The notes below the pieces were generated by a model that ran no database searches, had not been told where the DNA came from, and was given only the letters and a program-made list of their open reading frames with translations. The translations under genes were made by a program, and so were the position numbers. From Gemmatimonadota bacterium (GTDB taxonomy: Bacteria; GCA-2686955), in the NCBI GenBank assembly GCA_002686955.1, contig NYZA01000106.1, positions 1 through 8,950 of the forward strand: 8,950 bases of DNA, written 5' to 3'. Below, in pieces: positions 2,856-8,950 of the stretch; the first letter of the stretch is position 1, and every line of letters starts with the position of its first letter.

Positions 2856-3275
2856 CGTCGGATCACCCTTCCGAGTGGAGGTCGCTCATTTGAGGAAGAT
2901 CGCGCGATAGAGGGAAGGCCTACGATCCAATCGGCGGGAAGGAGGGCGAGAAGCAAGTTCCGTCGGATCGTGTAACTGCCCTGCACGCAACGAGAAAGCG
3001 AGGAATACCCAGGCTAGAGGACAGGCGTGGCGGTGTCAATTCGCCAATTGGGAATCCAACGCTTCGACACGGAGCGTTAGTCGACAGAGGGACGAAAAGG
3101 TGGACGGATGACCGAGTATTGGTTCACTGATCGCCGTCATTCGCAACCAGGCCCGCCCAGTGGCTCCGCTTGCCCGAACGCGCCGCCCTTGTCGCCGGCA
3201 AGACGAAGCAAGCCCGCCGCGCCCCACTCCGCTCGACTCGCTGACCCGGATTTCGCGCCAACTTCTGTAGCCGCG
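2856..3275. other. Non-coding part of the divergent intergenic region, TRAP side
   Basis: I see no credible gene here: open frames on either strand are short, lack ribosome sites and give Arg/Ser/Pro-rich low-complexity products. It contains the TRAP-side promoter candidate. Two small inverted repeats lie near it: CAATT-cgcc-AATTG (3037-3050), which overlaps the candidate -35 box, and AACGCT-9 nt-AGCGTT (3058-3078). The first could be an operator by position, but a 5-bp arm is weak evidence. Nothing recognisable was found at 3080-3275. Confidence 0.5.
3011..3039 (-). promoter_or_regulatory. Candidate sigma-70-type promoter for the tatT-dctPQM operon
   Basis: The minus strand carries a perfect TTGACA (3039-3034), a 17-nt spacer, then TAGCCT (3016-3011), which matches the -10 consensus at T1, A2 and T6. 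Transcription would start near 3004 and leave a leader of about 150 nt before tatT. The -35 match and the exact spacing are good. The -10 is weak, and the sigma preferences of this organism are unknown. Confidence 0.4.
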
Positions 3276-3379
3276 AGCGTCGCCCGTCGGAGCTGAGCTG
3301 CCGCGAAGCGGCCAACAACTCCCCCCGGCCGCGAGCTCCAAGCGTCGCCCGTTGGAGTTGAGCTGCCGCGAAGCGGCCA
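3276..3379. repeat. Two direct copies of a 39-nt repeat, 65 nt apart start to start
   Basis: Copies lie at 3276-3314 and 3341-3379 and differ at only two positions, both C in the first copy and T in the second. Each contains the self-complementary core CCGC-gaa-GCGG. In the second copy the complementarity extends outward: GTTGGAGTT (3351-3359) pairs with AACTCCAAC (3385-3393), and GAGCTG pairs with CAGCTC. This gives about 19 pairs with two single-base bulges. This architecture resembles REP/BIME-type or small MITE-like extragenic elements. No transposase is nearby. Confidence 0.7.
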
Positions 3380-3389
3380 GCTCCAACTC

Positions 3390-3424
3390 CAACCTCATGG
3401 GCTGCTCCGCAGCCCATGAGGTTG
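3390..3424. repeat. Perfect 16-bp inverted repeat with 3-nt loop
   Basis: CAACCTCATGGGCTGC, then TCC, then GCAGCCCATGAGGTTG forms a perfect 16-bp stem. Its left edge shares bases 3390-3393 with the outer arm of the preceding repeat hairpin, so the two folds compete. No T run follows in either direction, which argues against an intrinsic terminator. It sits between the two divergent transcription units and overlaps the weak -35 box of the receptor-side promoter candidate. Confidence 0.75.
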
Positions 3425-3861: not shown

Positions 3862-6678
3862 ATGACCTCGAGATTTGGCAGTTTCCTGCTGGCTGTCGCC
3901 CTGGCGGCTGGCCTGGCGGCACCTCAGGCTCTCGCCGGTGTGGCCGGCAAAGTAGCCGGCAAGGTGATCGACCAGGATTCCGGCGCCGGCTTGGCGGCCG
4001 CGAATGTGGTGCTCGTCGGAACACTCTACGGTGCCAGCACCGACGACAACGGCAACTACTACATCCTCAACGTACCCGCGGGCTCCTACGACCTGCGAGT
4101 CGATTACATCGGTTTCAAGAGCTTTGTTCTTCGGAATGTGAAGGTATCTCCCGATCTCACCACTCGCGTGCCGCTCGCTCTCGAGGCGACCGCCCTCGAG
4201 CTTGGAACCGAGACCATCGTGATCGCCGAGCGCGAGCTCATTCAGCCCAGCATCACGAATTCCTATCGTGTGACCAGCGGCGAGGAAATCGAAGACGCCC
4301 CGATTCGCGGCTACCAGCAAGCGGTCGCGATCAGCGCGGGTGTCGTATCGGACGACGAAGGAGACATGCACTTCCGTGGCGGACGCGGAAACGAGATCGC
4401 TTTCTACGTGGACGGAGTGCTCCAAAACGACCTGCTATCGGGCAACAACAACACAGATGTCTCGTCGGGCGCGATCGAAGAGGTCTCCGTGCAGAACGGC
4501 GGATTCAACGCCGAGTACGGCTACGCGATGTCGGGCATCGTCAATGTCGTGACCAAAAGCGGTCGGCAGGATTGGACCGGACGCGTCGAGGCTGTGACCG
4601 ACGCCGCGGCCGGCGACTGGGCCAACACACTGAGCTTCGGCTACAACCTCGTGAATGCATCCGCCGGCGGCCCGCTCGGCACCGATAAGCTGACGCTCTT
4701 CGGGTCCGTGGAGTACGAGAACACCGATGACAAGAACCCCTCTCCGATAACCGTCTCCGACGGAGGTATTCTCGGCCACAATTCGCTCGAGAGTCTCAAC
4801 GGCACGGCGAAGCTCACCTACAAGCCCAGCGAGAGCTTCTCTCTGCAGGCGTCGTACCTGAGATCTCAGCGTGATCAACTCGACTACACCACCGTGAGCC
4901 GAACTCTCAATGAAGGAGATGCTTGGAAGTACAACCTCGATCATGCGCCGCGGATCGAGGACTACACCAACAACGTCGGCCTGAAGGCTACGCTCTTCTT
5001 TGGAGACGCTACCTTCGCGGAGGTTCGCGGATCGTTCTTCCAGACAGATTATCAAAGAGGCGACGGCTTGTTCTTCGACGACCTAGTCTTGTATGAAGGG
5101 TTTGGATCCGAGTTCGATAGTACTGGCCTTTTCTACAAGAGCAGCACTTCGTTCGACGACTATCTGCACCGCAATTCCCAAAAATACGAGGTGGGCGCGA
5201 GCATCGTACACCAGTTCACCGATATCTTCACGGCTGGATTCGATCACGAGATCAAGACCGGCGTCGAGTACCAACAGCACACCTTGCGAAGCTATCGGAA
5301 TGCGTCTCCATCAAAGGGGCAGGACGCGGACGGCTACAAGGATGTCGACGCGTACGGGTACGACAAGAATGGCAAGGAATACGATGGCAATGATGACTTC
5401 ACCGAATTGCTGTCCGCACCCAAAGAGCCGTTGCTCTTCGCCGCCTATCTTCAAGACAAGATGGAGTTCGAGGATCTAATCGTCAACGCGGGCATCCGTT
5501 TCGACTATTTGGATTCCAAGACCAATATCTTCAAGAATCTGTCCAATGAATTGCAGGTCGACAAGACACTCGACCTCGCCAGGGCGGGCGGCGACACTCT
5601 CCAATTGGACGAGGAAGATTTCGAGCCAGCAGCCGCGTCAACGCAGATTTCCCCCCGCGTAGGCGTAAGCTTCCCCGTCAGTGAGCGCACCAATTTCCAT
5701 CTGAACTACGGCCGCTTCTTCCAGCAGCCCAATCTCAACGATCTCTACTCTGGCTTGGCCTGGTACGATATCCTGCTCGTTCAGTCTGCCTTTGCGGCGC
5801 AGGTGGGCAATCCCAATTTGGAAGCGCAGCGCACAACTGCCTACGAAGTTGGGCTCAAACACGAAATCAGCGACGGAATGATGGTTGATGCCACGGCATT
5901 CTACCGAGACACTGAAGGACTGATCAACCTCGCCAGTCAGGACGGCAAGCCGTCCGGTTTCATCGCTCCATTCAACCTCGATGTGGGAACCAACAAGGGT
6001 GTCGATCTTGTCTTTGAAATGCTGCGCCGCAACAAGTTGAGCGCAAGAGCAAGCTACACACTCTCTTTTGCCCAAGGAACGGGTTCGAGTGATAACTCGA
6101 CATTCAACAATGTATGGCTAGATTTCGAGACGGCCAAGACAACAAAGGCGCTCGATTTCGATCAGCGACACACATTCAACGTCGCGCTCGATCTCCGGAA
6201 TCGCGATGGTGAGGGGCCGAGACTCCTCGACATGCATCCGCTAGAGAACGCCGGCTTGAACTTCATCATTCAAGGAGGCAGCGGTCTCGCCTATACGGCG
6301 ACCGATATCCACAATGCGATGGATTTGGGCTCAGTTCCGCGGTTCGAGCCTGTTGAGGGCATCAATCAATCGTATCGGCCATGGAACGCGAGAGTGGACA
6401 TGAAAGCGAACAGGGAGTTTTCGACAGCAGGCGCTAACGCGAATCTGTACGTCGAAGTGCTGAACTTGTTCAATCGCGCAAACGCAGTGGACATCTACAC
6501 TGCTACCGGAACAGCCACCGACGATGGATACCTCGGATCGGCGGCTGCCGAAGCCCTAGTCTCGACCTTGGAGATGGACCCGGATCTCTACCGTGCCCAA
6601 TACTCCGACCGGCTGTCCAACCCCTTCTTCTGGGATATTCCGCGTCTAGTCCGCGTGGGCCTGGTTCTCAGCTTCTAG
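3862..6678 (+). CDS. TonB-dependent outer-membrane receptor with N-terminal carboxypeptidase-regulatory-like domain
   Basis: This is a 938-residue outer-membrane protein, predicted to import or bind an unknown ligand using TonB energy. Residues 1-25 are a signal peptide ending in PQALA. Residues about 28-110 form a carboxypeptidase-regulatory-like beta sandwich (GKVIDQDSGAGLAAANVVLV, then TDDNGNYYILNVPAGSYDL). TETIVIAE (116-123) resembles a TonB box. The plug follows at about 130-235, with FRGGRGNEIAFYVDGV and the closing SGIVNVVTKSG. The rest is a roughly 22-strand barrel ending in RLVRVGLVLSF, a normal outer-membrane beta-signal with terminal Phe. The late LDFDQRHTFNVAL and LNLFNRANAVDIY motifs are common in this receptor family. 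A loop at about 488-514 is rich in Asp, Gly, Asn and Tyr. The layout is SusC/Oar-like, but no SusD follows, so a glycan role is not supported. The next gene begins 29 nt downstream and is probably co-transcribed. Confidence 0.9.
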   Translation: MTSRFGSFLLAVALAAGLAAPQALAGVAGKVAGKVIDQDSGAGLAAANVVLVGTLYGASTDDNGNYYILNVPAGSYDLRVDYIGFKSFVLRNVKVSPDLTTRVPLALEATALELGTETIVIAERELIQPSITNSYRVTSGEEIEDAPIRGYQQAVAISAGVVSDDEGDMHFRGGRGNEIAFYVDGVLQNDLLSGNNNTDVSSGAIEEVSVQNGGFNAEYGYAMSGIVNVVTKSGRQDWTGRVEAVTDAAAGDWANTLSFGYNLVNASAGGPLGTDKLTLFGSVEYENTDDKNPSPITVSDGGILGHNSLESLNGTAKLTYKPSESFSLQASYLRSQRDQLDYTTVSRTLNEGDAWKYNLDHAPRIEDYTNNVGLKATLFFGDATFAEVRGSFFQTDYQRGDGLFFDDLVLYEGFGSEFDSTGLFYKSSTSFDDYLHRNSQKYEVGASIVHQFTDIFTAGFDHEIKTGVEYQQHTLRSYRNASPSKGQDADGYKDVDAYGYDKNGKEYDGNDDFTELLSAPKEPLLFAAYLQDKMEFEDLIVNAGIRFDYLDSKTNIFKNLSNELQVDKTLDLARAGGDTLQLDEEDFEPAAASTQISPRVGVSFPVSERTNFHLNYGRFFQQPNLNDLYSGLAWYDILLVQSAFAAQVGNPNLEAQRTTAYEVGLKHEISDGMMVDATAFYRDTEGLINLASQDGKPSGFIAPFNLDVGTNKGVDLVFEMLRRNKLSARASYTLSFAQGTGSSDNSTFNNVWLDFETAKTTKALDFDQRHTFNVALDLRNRDGEGPRLLDMHPLENAGLNFIIQGGSGLAYTATDIHNAMDLGSVPRFEPVEGINQSYRPWNARVDMKANREFSTAGANANLYVEVLNLFNRANAVDIYTATGTATDDGYLGSAAAEALVSTLEMDPDLYRAQYSDRLSNPFFWDIPRLVRVGLVLSF

Positions 6679-6696
6679 ATGCAGAAATGCGGAATC

Positions 6697-6702
6697 GAGG
6701 AG
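6697..6702 (+). promoter_or_regulatory. Ribosome binding site of the exported protein
   Basis: GAGGAG lies 5 nt before the ATG at 6708 and 18 nt after the receptor stop codon. It favours 6708 over the second in-frame ATG at 6714. Confidence 0.65.
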
Positions 6703-6707
6703 TGACA

Positions 6708-8950
6708 ATGTCGATGAATCGAAACAAATGGTCGCTGACCGGAGCTGCCGCCACGGTCGCAGTGCTGGCAACGACAACGGCGGTTCTGGCGAGGCCAAGT
6801 GGTGCACCGAGCCTGAACAAGACGGCCTTTCGTGACCAACAAACGCTTGGTGTCAACAACTGGGGCCTCGAGATCACTAACTACGGATCGTTTGGCTATG
6901 ACATCGCCGGCTCGAATGCAGGCGGCGAGTTTCCACGAGGATCCGGTTATCACGTGCTGTTCGCTGGCGGTTTTCAATTCGGGACTCTGGTCGACGGCAC
7001 ACCGCAAGTAAGCCAAGTGGAGTTCGAGTCGGATTTTCAACCAGGCGCGATTATTAACGTCTCAACGATAGAAGCGGACTCGCTTCCCCCTCTCCCCGTC
7101 GGGGATCTCTTGGCCGATGATCCTGCGGGACCCGATCAGCGGGTTTTGATGGCGACACGCACGGGCGAGTTGCCCACCGACTGGCCGGATACAGTCGATG
7201 TTATCGGCGATGCGGCGACCTACGCCACATTCAACGATCTCGATGCCACACTGTCTTCCGACGCTGGGCAGGCACCGCTAGGGATAGAGGTTTCGCAGCA
7301 CTCATTTGCGTTCGCGAAGCAAGGTGCCCAGGGTGATATCGTCTATCTTCGGTTTTTTCTCTCCAACAAGTCAGATCAGAACTACACCGATTCCTACGCC
7401 GAAGTCTGGTTCGATCCAGACAACGGATCGGCCGGCAACGACCTGACCGGTTCCGATGTCGAGACCTCACTTGGCTACGTCTACAACGCTGATGAGGAGA
7501 GTCGAAACACCGCCATGGGTGCCGATTTCTTCCAAGGACCGATCGTATCTGACACCACCTCAACAGTGGTGAGGCGCGGCGGGGTCACCTTCAACAAGAC
7601 GGAGGATTACGAGTTCATCGAGGGCGATGAAGAGATCGAGGACCAGCGCGTGCTGGGAATGAGCGCCTTTTCGTTCTACATCAACGGCACCGATCCCGAC
7701 ACCGATGAAGAGCGATACAACCTGATGAGGGGGCTGACCCGCGAAGGCGTCACACGAACCAACGGCCCCTTCGACTACGCGGGCGATCCTGTCACCGGTG
7801 AGGGTGTCAACGACGCAGCCCCGAACGACAAGCGCATGGCTCTGATCACCGGGCCGTTCACGTTGGGCCCCGGAGAGACTCAGGAAGTCGTTGTCGCGAT
7901 CATTGCGGCAGAAGTAACTAGTTCCGAGGATCCACTGGTGGCTTTGACAGCACTTCGCGAGACCGACCGCGAAGCACAAATCGCCTATGACTTCGACTAC
8001 ATCCAACAAGCACCGCCGCCCCCGCCGGTTACCATCGCCTATGCGTATGACGGCGAGGCCCTGTTGACCTGGGACAGTTCCCCGGAGAACGCGGAGGACA
8101 CCTTTGGAGAAAAGCTGAGCCTCGGCGAGCTCCGCGAGGTGCAGGACACGACGCTGGTCATCACCGAGCTCGATAGCCTGGGCAACGTCATATCGTACGA
8201 AGAAGTGATTGGAACGACGACGATCGGATATGACAAATTCGATTTCCAAGGCTACCGAGTCTACCGGAGCGAAACCGGGGACACCGGAAGCTGGGAGCTC
8301 TTGGCGGAGTACGACGTGGTTGACGGCGTAACGGAAGTCGCGGCACGTGTGTTCAACAACACACTGCAAGAAGACGAAGTTTCGCAGCTCCACATCGGCA
8401 CCGATTCGGGACTTGCCTACTTCTTCAACGACATCGGCCTGCAAAACGGGAGGCCCTACTACTACTCCGTGACATCGTACGACTACCAGCCGATGACGAC
8501 ATTGGAACGGACCCTGGAGAGCCTCCAAACCGGGAACATGTTCCGAGTCGTTCCGAAGGAGCTCCCGGCCGGCTACGACTATGCCGGCGCTTCCGCGGAC
8601 GTCGACAGCCTGGTCGAGCATACCGGCACCTCGGATGGGTCTGTCACAGTCTCCGTCGTGGATCCTTCGAAGGTCACGGGCGACGACTACATGGTGACCT
8701 TCCGCGACTTCGAAAAGGTGACGCTCGAGGGCGACACGGTGACGGTGCCTGGTTGGGATCTGATCAACGAATCGACTGGAGACACGGTTCTCGCGATGCA
8801 AGAGAATCAGGCAGGCGACGCGGCCTATCAGGTCGCCGATGGTCTCCTCGTCAAGGTGATCGGCCCGCAACCCGGCTGGAAAGAGAACGTCAAAGGCAAC
8901 CCGATGATCGATGAGGTCATTGCGGTTGCTCCCGACGATGTTCCCTACAC
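6708..8950 (+). CDS. Large exported protein with split FnIII-like module, function unknown (C-terminus beyond window)
   Basis: The frame is open for 747 codons and runs off the right edge. Residues 1-28 are a signal peptide (basic start, then LTGAAATVAVLATTTAVLA). Residues about 35-430 form a region I recognise in style from exported proteins of FCB-type and related candidate phyla. Its signatures are NWGLEITNYGSFG, an aromatic GSGYHVLFAGGFQFG, EVWFDPDNG, LGYVYNADEESRNTAMGADF leading into FQGP, YNLMRGLTREG, and ITGPFTLGPGETQEVVVAII. A proline linker (PPPPP, 436-440) leads to an FnIII-like module at about 441-594: ALLTWDSSPE, FQGYRVYRSE (513-522) and PYYYSVTSYDY. About 35 extra residues lie between its first strands and GYRVYR. 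The remainder is beta-rich, with repeated acidic segments. The missing end might carry a sorting or anchoring domain. It follows the receptor by 29 nt, so a surface partner role is plausible. It is not SusD: the helical TPR body is absent. Confidence 0.85.
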   Translation, partial: MSMNRNKWSLTGAAATVAVLATTTAVLARPSGAPSLNKTAFRDQQTLGVNNWGLEITNYGSFGYDIAGSNAGGEFPRGSGYHVLFAGGFQFGTLVDGTPQVSQVEFESDFQPGAIINVSTIEADSLPPLPVGDLLADDPAGPDQRVLMATRTGELPTDWPDTVDVIGDAATYATFNDLDATLSSDAGQAPLGIEVSQHSFAFAKQGAQGDIVYLRFFLSNKSDQNYTDSYAEVWFDPDNGSAGNDLTGSDVETSLGYVYNADEESRNTAMGADFFQGPIVSDTTSTVVRRGGVTFNKTEDYEFIEGDEEIEDQRVLGMSAFSFYINGTDPDTDEERYNLMRGLTREGVTRTNGPFDYAGDPVTGEGVNDAAPNDKRMALITGPFTLGPGETQEVVVAIIAAEVTSSEDPLVALTALRETDREAQIAYDFDYIQQAPPPPPVTIAYAYDGEALLTWDSSPENAEDTFGEKLSLGELREVQDTTLVITELDSLGNVISYEEVIGTTTIGYDKFDFQGYRVYRSETGDTGSWELLAEYDVVDGVTEVAARVFNNTLQEDEVSQLHIGTDSGLAYFFNDIGLQNGRPYYYSVTSYDYQPMTTLERTLESLQTGNMFRVVPKELPAGYDYAGASADVDSLVEHTGTSDGSVTVSVVDPSKVTGDDYMVTFRDFEKVTLEGDTVTVPGWDLINESTGDTVLAMQENQAGDAAYQVADGLLVKVIGPQPGWKENVKGNPMIDEVIAVAPDDVPY

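Follow-up and report, generated by a model that had tools for sequence, protein, structure and literature searches.

A conserved three-gene unit of TonB-dependent receptor, putative type IX-secreted protein and PorV/PorQ-family barrel in little-studied bacterial phyla

Introduction

Does a large exported protein that is encoded directly behind a TonB-dependent receptor act as the partner of that receptor, and by which route would it reach the cell surface? The question is raised by the window, the complete stretch of 8,950 nucleotides analyzed here, which is the whole of contig C106 in a 4.28 Mb Gemmatimonadota genome of 270 contigs. SusC/SusD is the well-known nutrient importer of Bacteroidota, and the original prediction, made from the window alone, had read the two genes as an analogue of it that lacks SusD. 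We found that receptor, exported protein and a barrel of the PorV/PorQ family form a conserved three-gene unit, here termed the trio, that is present in many little-studied bacterial phyla. The open-access literature yielded no published description of it, an absence that is weak evidence, as subscription journals lay outside the search.

Results

Gene content of the locus

The receptor and the exported protein are both present as predicted (Table 1). The clear signal sequence MTSRFGSFLLAVALAAGLAAPQALA opens the receptor, N-terminal of its domains, and plug and barrel both exceed their Pfam cut-offs, which bears out its description as a TonB-dependent receptor with signal peptide, plug and barrel. 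A gap of exactly 29 nt (6679-6707) with the strong ribosome-binding site that had also been foreseen separates it from the ATG of the exported protein at 6708, whose frame contains a signal sequence and stays open to 8948 (747 codons). The pair itself, however, proved incomplete. As the end of the window overlaps exactly, over 78 bp, with the start of contig C257, the exported protein comprises 1081 residues; an end at the contig edge or a break in the assembly was ruled out by this exact overlap with a single contig and by the one continuous frame. Its C-terminal domain and stop codon lie past this overlap, and a third gene follows on C257.

Table 1. Features of the window and of the adjoining part of contig C257 (locus L004).
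Feature	Position	Strand	Basis or remark
TonB-dependent receptor, trio subfamily, 938 aa	3862..6678	+	Pfam and trio-receptor HMM; ATG at 3862, stop codon 6676-6678
Receptor CarboxypepD_reg, residues 31-107	3952-4182	+	Pfam E 4e-17, over cut-off
Receptor Plug (PF07715), residues 131-221	4252-4524	+	Pfam E 2e-7, over cut-off
Receptor barrel (PF00593), residues 339-869	4876-6468	+	Pfam E 1e-31, over cut-off
Ribosome-binding site GAGGAG of the exported protein, within the 29-nt gap	6697..6702	+	sequence
Exported, predicted T9SS-type surface protein, codons 1-747 of 1081	6708..8950	+	remainder on contig C257 (L004, up to 1081)
N-terminal supersandwich domain, residues 40-433	6825..8006	+	AlphaFold2 model (pLDDT 80.5) and VIA-align
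Putative fibronectin-type-III-like beta domain, ~residues 440-606	8025..8525	+	model and Foldseek matches of a homologue
Assembly overlap with start of contig C257, 78 bp, exact	8873..8950		sequence match
Stop codon of the exported protein	L004:1079-1081		beyond the window, contig C257
PorV/PorQ-family barrel gene, 330 aa	L004:1140-2132		contig C257, 58 bp past the exported-protein stop

The third gene product belongs to the PorV/PorQ family, scoring 170 bits against NCBIfam NF033709 (cut-off 90), but it is not PorV, PorQ or PorV2 proper, where it reached 65, 101 and 76 bits against equivalog cut-offs of 250, 220 and 325, respectively. Nor does it match the family model of the PorP/SprF shuttles: TIGR03519 gave 14 bits on its first 147 residues (cut-off 90.55), and the full protein had no match at E 1e-5. 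For the exported protein, the AlphaFold2 model of the 747-residue window part (mean pLDDT 80.5) consists mainly of strands, so that the predicted label of a beta-rich protein of at least 747 residues was right. The model of a full-length homologue reached a mean pLDDT of 85.8, and both models are nearly all strand, except for one long helix after the supersandwich domain. Note that fold searches were filled by this domain and barely covered residues ~440-930. A Pfam search of the exported protein revealed no enzyme domain. Pfam matches to Hemocyanin_M and Retro_M were below cut-off and were taken as chance.

The surroundings hold further features. Upstream of the receptor, in the GC-rich intergenic stretch at 3240-3420 of the window, a motif around GAGCTGCCGCGAAGCGGCCA is repeated, and an inverted repeat lies around CCTCATGGGCTGC/GCAGCCCATGAGG. 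A TRAP transporter set at 227-2855 on the minus strand reads away from the trio and comprises TAtT (TRAP T-component, E 1e-71), the solute-binding protein DctP and DctQ, with the DctM gene probably located beyond the contig end. On C257, a sensor histidine kinase that could regulate the operon lies directly downstream of the PorV gene (L004:2208-3638), and an unusual protein of 1061 residues (L004:13147-16329) unites a peptidase MA-like domain, a WD40-like propeller and an Omp85-type barrel.

Recurrence and co-inheritance of the trio

A public genome collection was scanned with the exported protein only, and the 80 best loci were thus obtained without selection for neighbours. Same-strand trios of receptor, exported protein and PorV-type barrel were complete in 62 of them (59 by script, with L090, L102 and L139, where frames were mis-called or broken, added by eye), with median gaps of 30 and 19 bp. 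Six more were cut by a contig end but consistent, one was uninformative, and 11 had no receptor immediately upstream, from which we conclude that the exported protein can work alone. The locus names include Ignavibacteria, Neomarinimicrobiota, KSB1, Calditrichota, Eisenbacteria, Kryptonia, Handelsmanbacteria and Cloacimonadota. The second sample was taken from one phylum – Marinimicrobia, judging from the coincidence of named loci (L169 = L091, L172 = L106, L179 = L144) – and was selected by the N-terminal domain only. Here, the exported family was found in 91 of 120 genomes, and 18 primary matches, four of which repeat loci of the first sample, yielded 17 complete trios and one that was cut. 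Five of these matches come from genomes of ~0.9-1.0 Mb that keep a single copy each. Adjacent, same-strand homologues, the test that had been proposed along with the original prediction, are thus found in several phyla and in a fixed order, and as they make up most of the homologous loci there, the arrangement is far above chance. The window genome itself contains two further trios, on contigs C82 and C159. Of its seven TonB receptors, three sit in trios, as does every one of its three PorV/PorQ proteins above cut-off.

The three genes also share their history. For 72 trios, tree distances correlated with Spearman coefficients of 0.86 (receptor and exported protein), 0.78 (exported protein and PorV) and 0.82 (receptor and PorV), and the nearest neighbour was identical in all three trees in 62.5% of cases. 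The window trio pairs with L050 in all three trees and the C82 trio with L049, while L077 pairs with L096 and L085, from the same assembly as L077, with L087. Paralogous trios within one genome thus keep their own partners, and species history alone does not explain the agreement of the trees. Recurrence and co-inheritance together rule out chance adjacency, although the latter could reflect co-regulation. As judged by profile scores, the trio receptors form a subfamily of their own: with an HMM built without the receptors of the window genome, its three trio receptors scored 828 (the window receptor), 557 and 252 bits, versus at most 105 bits for its non-trio receptors.

A recurring fourth gene was sought and ruled out, as neither of the two candidates is constant. 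In 16 of 58 trios (L078:14272-16995 and 15 other loci) the gene after PorV encodes a GWxTD-domain protein, in some cases in two copies, and a large protein with a PIG-L domain, similar to GlcNAc deacetylases, takes this place in nine (L093:7821-10067 and eight others). Two loci contain arrays of four tandem exported-protein copies with a short tail and with neither receptor nor PorV in between (L100:108-11503, L124:413-13702). Near some trios we also observed a more distant second arrangement of receptor and exported protein (L107:1-5487, L110:1-6110, L124:17459-23691, L148:16815-22729), which may represent a further class of the module.

The C-terminal domain and the secretion system of the genome

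The exported protein ends in a domain of the form PNPY...IRIFNVAGDLVRTL...GVYAAHI...KFAII, with the PNPY motif and a conserved lysine in the last strand. In NCBIfam this domain matched the C-terminal domain (CTD) of PorZ with E 1.7e-4, under the whole-protein cut-off of that model, and a family profile run against solved structures likewise retrieved the PorZ CTD (5m11, E 5e-4). Foldseek with the full-length homologue model returned PorZ as the top match, with PorU also among the best. A Sec signal sequence thus coexists with a C-terminal Ig-like domain related to known CTDs, as in cargo of type IX secretion (T9SS). The canonical type A models miss it: the window protein is below the Pfam cut-offs of Por_Secre_tail and FlgD_ig, each of which gave only one weak match among eight family members, and the window CTD scored 110 bits with a model of the trio CTDs, versus 9.5 bits with one made from 20 canonical CTDs of flanking genes. 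It is this combination of PorZ/PorU likeness with failure of the canonical models that leads us to call the domain a T9SS-type CTD, predicted from sequence and model to be a separate subtype.

The system itself is present in the window genome, with the translocon SprA on contig C17 (523 bits in all, cut-off 200) and, as sortase, a PorU-like C25 peptidase (245 bits) that adjoins a PorV-like barrel on contig C29. Among 60 relatives, 11 genomes encode the exported family, and 10 of these have SprA; of the 49 that do not encode it, 6 have SprA (Fisher p 1e-6). All eight additional family-bearing genomes likewise possess SprA, which thus regularly accompanies the family but also occurs without it. 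Within the streamlined genus no co-loss of SprA and trio was found: three sister genomes in which no trio was detected have kept SprA, and their assemblies are all more fragmented (60-110 contigs).

Beyond the last CTD strand the trio proteins carry a short tail. It is exactly nine residues long in all 53 proteins that an automatic rule could measure, out of 61 examined, and F or Y is the last residue in 51 of the 61. The window tail reads QGTEELGVF, and others are, for example, QEQQILDRF and QPEERLDVY. A tail of at least six residues is present in 53 of 61 trio proteins versus 4 of 23 paralogues that stand alone (p 4e-9), where it mostly has one to four residues; in L075, for instance, NRE are the last residues of the lone copy, where its trio sister reads NREQRYLHM. 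A tree computed from the sequences minus the tail places its shortening at several distinct points, along with loss of the trio context, and four lone copies bear a canonical CTD instead of the trio type. Exceptions exist in both directions. The trios on C82 and C159 of the window genome lack the tail, which is thus not needed for every trio, as do their relatives L049 and L061; it is longer in L050 and L095, and a few lone copies retain nine residues (L079, L104, L176). Model confidence falls at the tail, as it would for a peptide that depends on a partner.

The N-terminal domain

Aligned by VIA-align with glucodextranase (1ug9), the N-terminal domain gave a Z score of 20.7 at an rmsd of 2.8 over 232 residues, well above the Z of 7 to 8 that the tool states as usual noise. 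It also aligns with the supersandwich N-terminal domains of glucoamylase and many GH94 and GH116 enzymes. For glucodextranase, bacterial glucoamylase, GH94 phosphorylases and GH116 glucosidases the shared fold is evident at Z 16-21, but identity is only ~10-14%, and the exported protein lacks a catalytic barrel after this domain: the (alpha/alpha)6 barrel of GH15, GH94 and GH116 is absent in the models of both the window part and the full-length homologue. Residues of the domain are strongly conserved, and the Asp-rich loop DPDxGxAxDDxxGCD is almost invariant. A sugar-enzyme fold minus the catalytic barrel fits ligand binding and suggests a glycan as the ligand. The supersandwich, however, also occurs in non-sugar proteins, and the fold alone shows no function. 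No CAZyme was found constantly linked to the trio.

Relation to SusD

An analogue of SusD by homology was ruled out, as the exported protein has no SusD match and SusD-like_3 (PF14322) is absent from the window genome, with a positive control genome. Counted by PF14322 alone among the SusD models, SusD turned up in 1 of 60 relatives and in 1 of the 11 genomes that encode the exported family; in the second phylum, 12 of 120 genomes had it, always as a single copy. In the signal region of the exported protein, ...VAVLATTTAVLARPSG, there is no cysteine and hence no lipobox, the mark of the surface lipoprotein of SusCD, and NCBIfam matches of the receptor up to E 1 included no SusC model and hence no SusC/RagA signature. 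The predicted association without SusD therefore holds in its core, recurring in genomes almost devoid of SusD, but not as a pair, given the PorV/PorQ-family barrel and the T9SS-type CTD. A C-terminal signal for another secretion route with unlinked partners had been named as an argument against the idea. Such a signal is present, but as the partner of the route is encoded next door, the CTD refines the idea rather than refuting it.

Discussion

The trio has its nearest precedents in two systems and is a member of neither. With SusC/SusD it shares the receptor-partner logic, a TonB-dependent receptor with an N-terminal carboxypeptidase-regulatory-like domain beside a surface protein thought to capture the ligand; it differs in that the partner is mostly beta, of T9SS type and free of a lipobox cysteine, with no SusD, in the receptor not matching SusC models, and in the PorV-family barrel as a third member. 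With the type B cargo–PorP/SprF pairs (SprB-SprF, PG1035-PorP; PMC12618676, PMC9143113) it shares a cargo gene placed directly before that of a small outer membrane barrel, as a cognate pair. There, the PorP/SprF-type barrel can be both shuttle and anchor for its cargo, a precedent for cognate barrels that hold cargo at the surface (PMC12618676, PMC9143113). The trio barrel, however, is of the PorV/PorQ family, the CTD resembles those of PorZ and PorU and is followed by a tail of nine residues, and a TonB receptor precedes both. The attachment complex of PorU/PorV and PorZ/PorQ also combines CTD-bearing surface proteins with PorV/PorQ-family barrels, and the trio CTD is nearest to PorZ in sequence; yet that complex has no TonB receptor, and the window genome has its separate PorU-like/PorV-like pair on C29.

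We consider it about an even chance that the three proteins form one outer membrane surface complex, in which a T9SS-delivered partner of the TonB receptor, SusD-like in function but unrelated to SusD, is held by a dedicated PorV paralogue. The 1081-residue protein would leave the cytoplasm by its Sec signal and use its CTD to cross the outer membrane via the translocon SprA. The adjoining barrel would act as dedicated shuttle and anchor, taking the CTD from the translocon and retaining it, uncleaved, on the cell surface. According to published work, extension of T9SS C-termini is tolerated (PMC11285876), and a CTD can combine a secretion signal with a targeting signal (PMC12618676). The tail may be an address to the protein's own barrel or receptor, away from the general PorV/PorU pathway. 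Anchored over or beside the receptor, the exported protein would capture a ligand, probably a glycan, with its sugar-enzyme-like domain and pass it on for import with TonB energy.

The receptor might, on the other hand, share the operon only because it is needed under the same conditions, with the exported protein being a surface adhesin, coat or scaffold on a PorV-type barrel. This would suit a large beta protein of several domains that has FN3-like regions and whose homologues also occur by themselves, as receptor-free arrays of four copies (L100, L124), and T9SS cargos are often adhesins or enzymes according to the literature. We nevertheless regard it as unlikely in view of the receptor gene that immediately precedes it on the same strand in the majority of loci across several phyla, the co-inheritance of paralogous sets, the separate subfamily of trio receptors and the strong conservation of N-terminal domain residues. 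If the function were enzymatic, the exported protein would be an enzyme, or the relic of one, that acts on glycans outside the cell while the receptor imports the products. The fold shared with GH15, GH94 and GH116 enzymes and the PIG-L-like deacetylase adjoining some trios point that way, but with the catalytic barrel missing from both models and no Pfam enzyme domain this is the least probable reading, and we give it little credence.

Receptor and barrel could also both work on the export side, with TonB energy contributing to assembly, sorting or release of the exported protein on the surface and nothing being imported. Three genes that travel together, and a tail tied to the trio context that would fit an assembly signal, are compatible with this. 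In model species, however, it is established that SprA and the T9SS motor power export with no TonB receptor involved (PMC10994853), some paralogues have no receptor, and the trio receptors keep the plug and barrel of ordinary importers, so that we think it quite improbable.

If the complex of receptor, T9SS-delivered partner and barrel is real, TonB-driven import and type IX secretion, normally studied apart, would be linked in one operon. The tail of exactly nine residues on a CTD subtype offers a testable sorting signal, and current family models (Por_Secre_tail, PorV, PorQ) miss the trio proteins or leave them unnamed. The trio may do the job of the SusC/SusD importer in bacteria mostly without SusD, and this would suggest a way of large-ligand uptake without SusD in abundant uncultured FCB bacteria, including Marinimicrobia with genomes of near 1 Mb.
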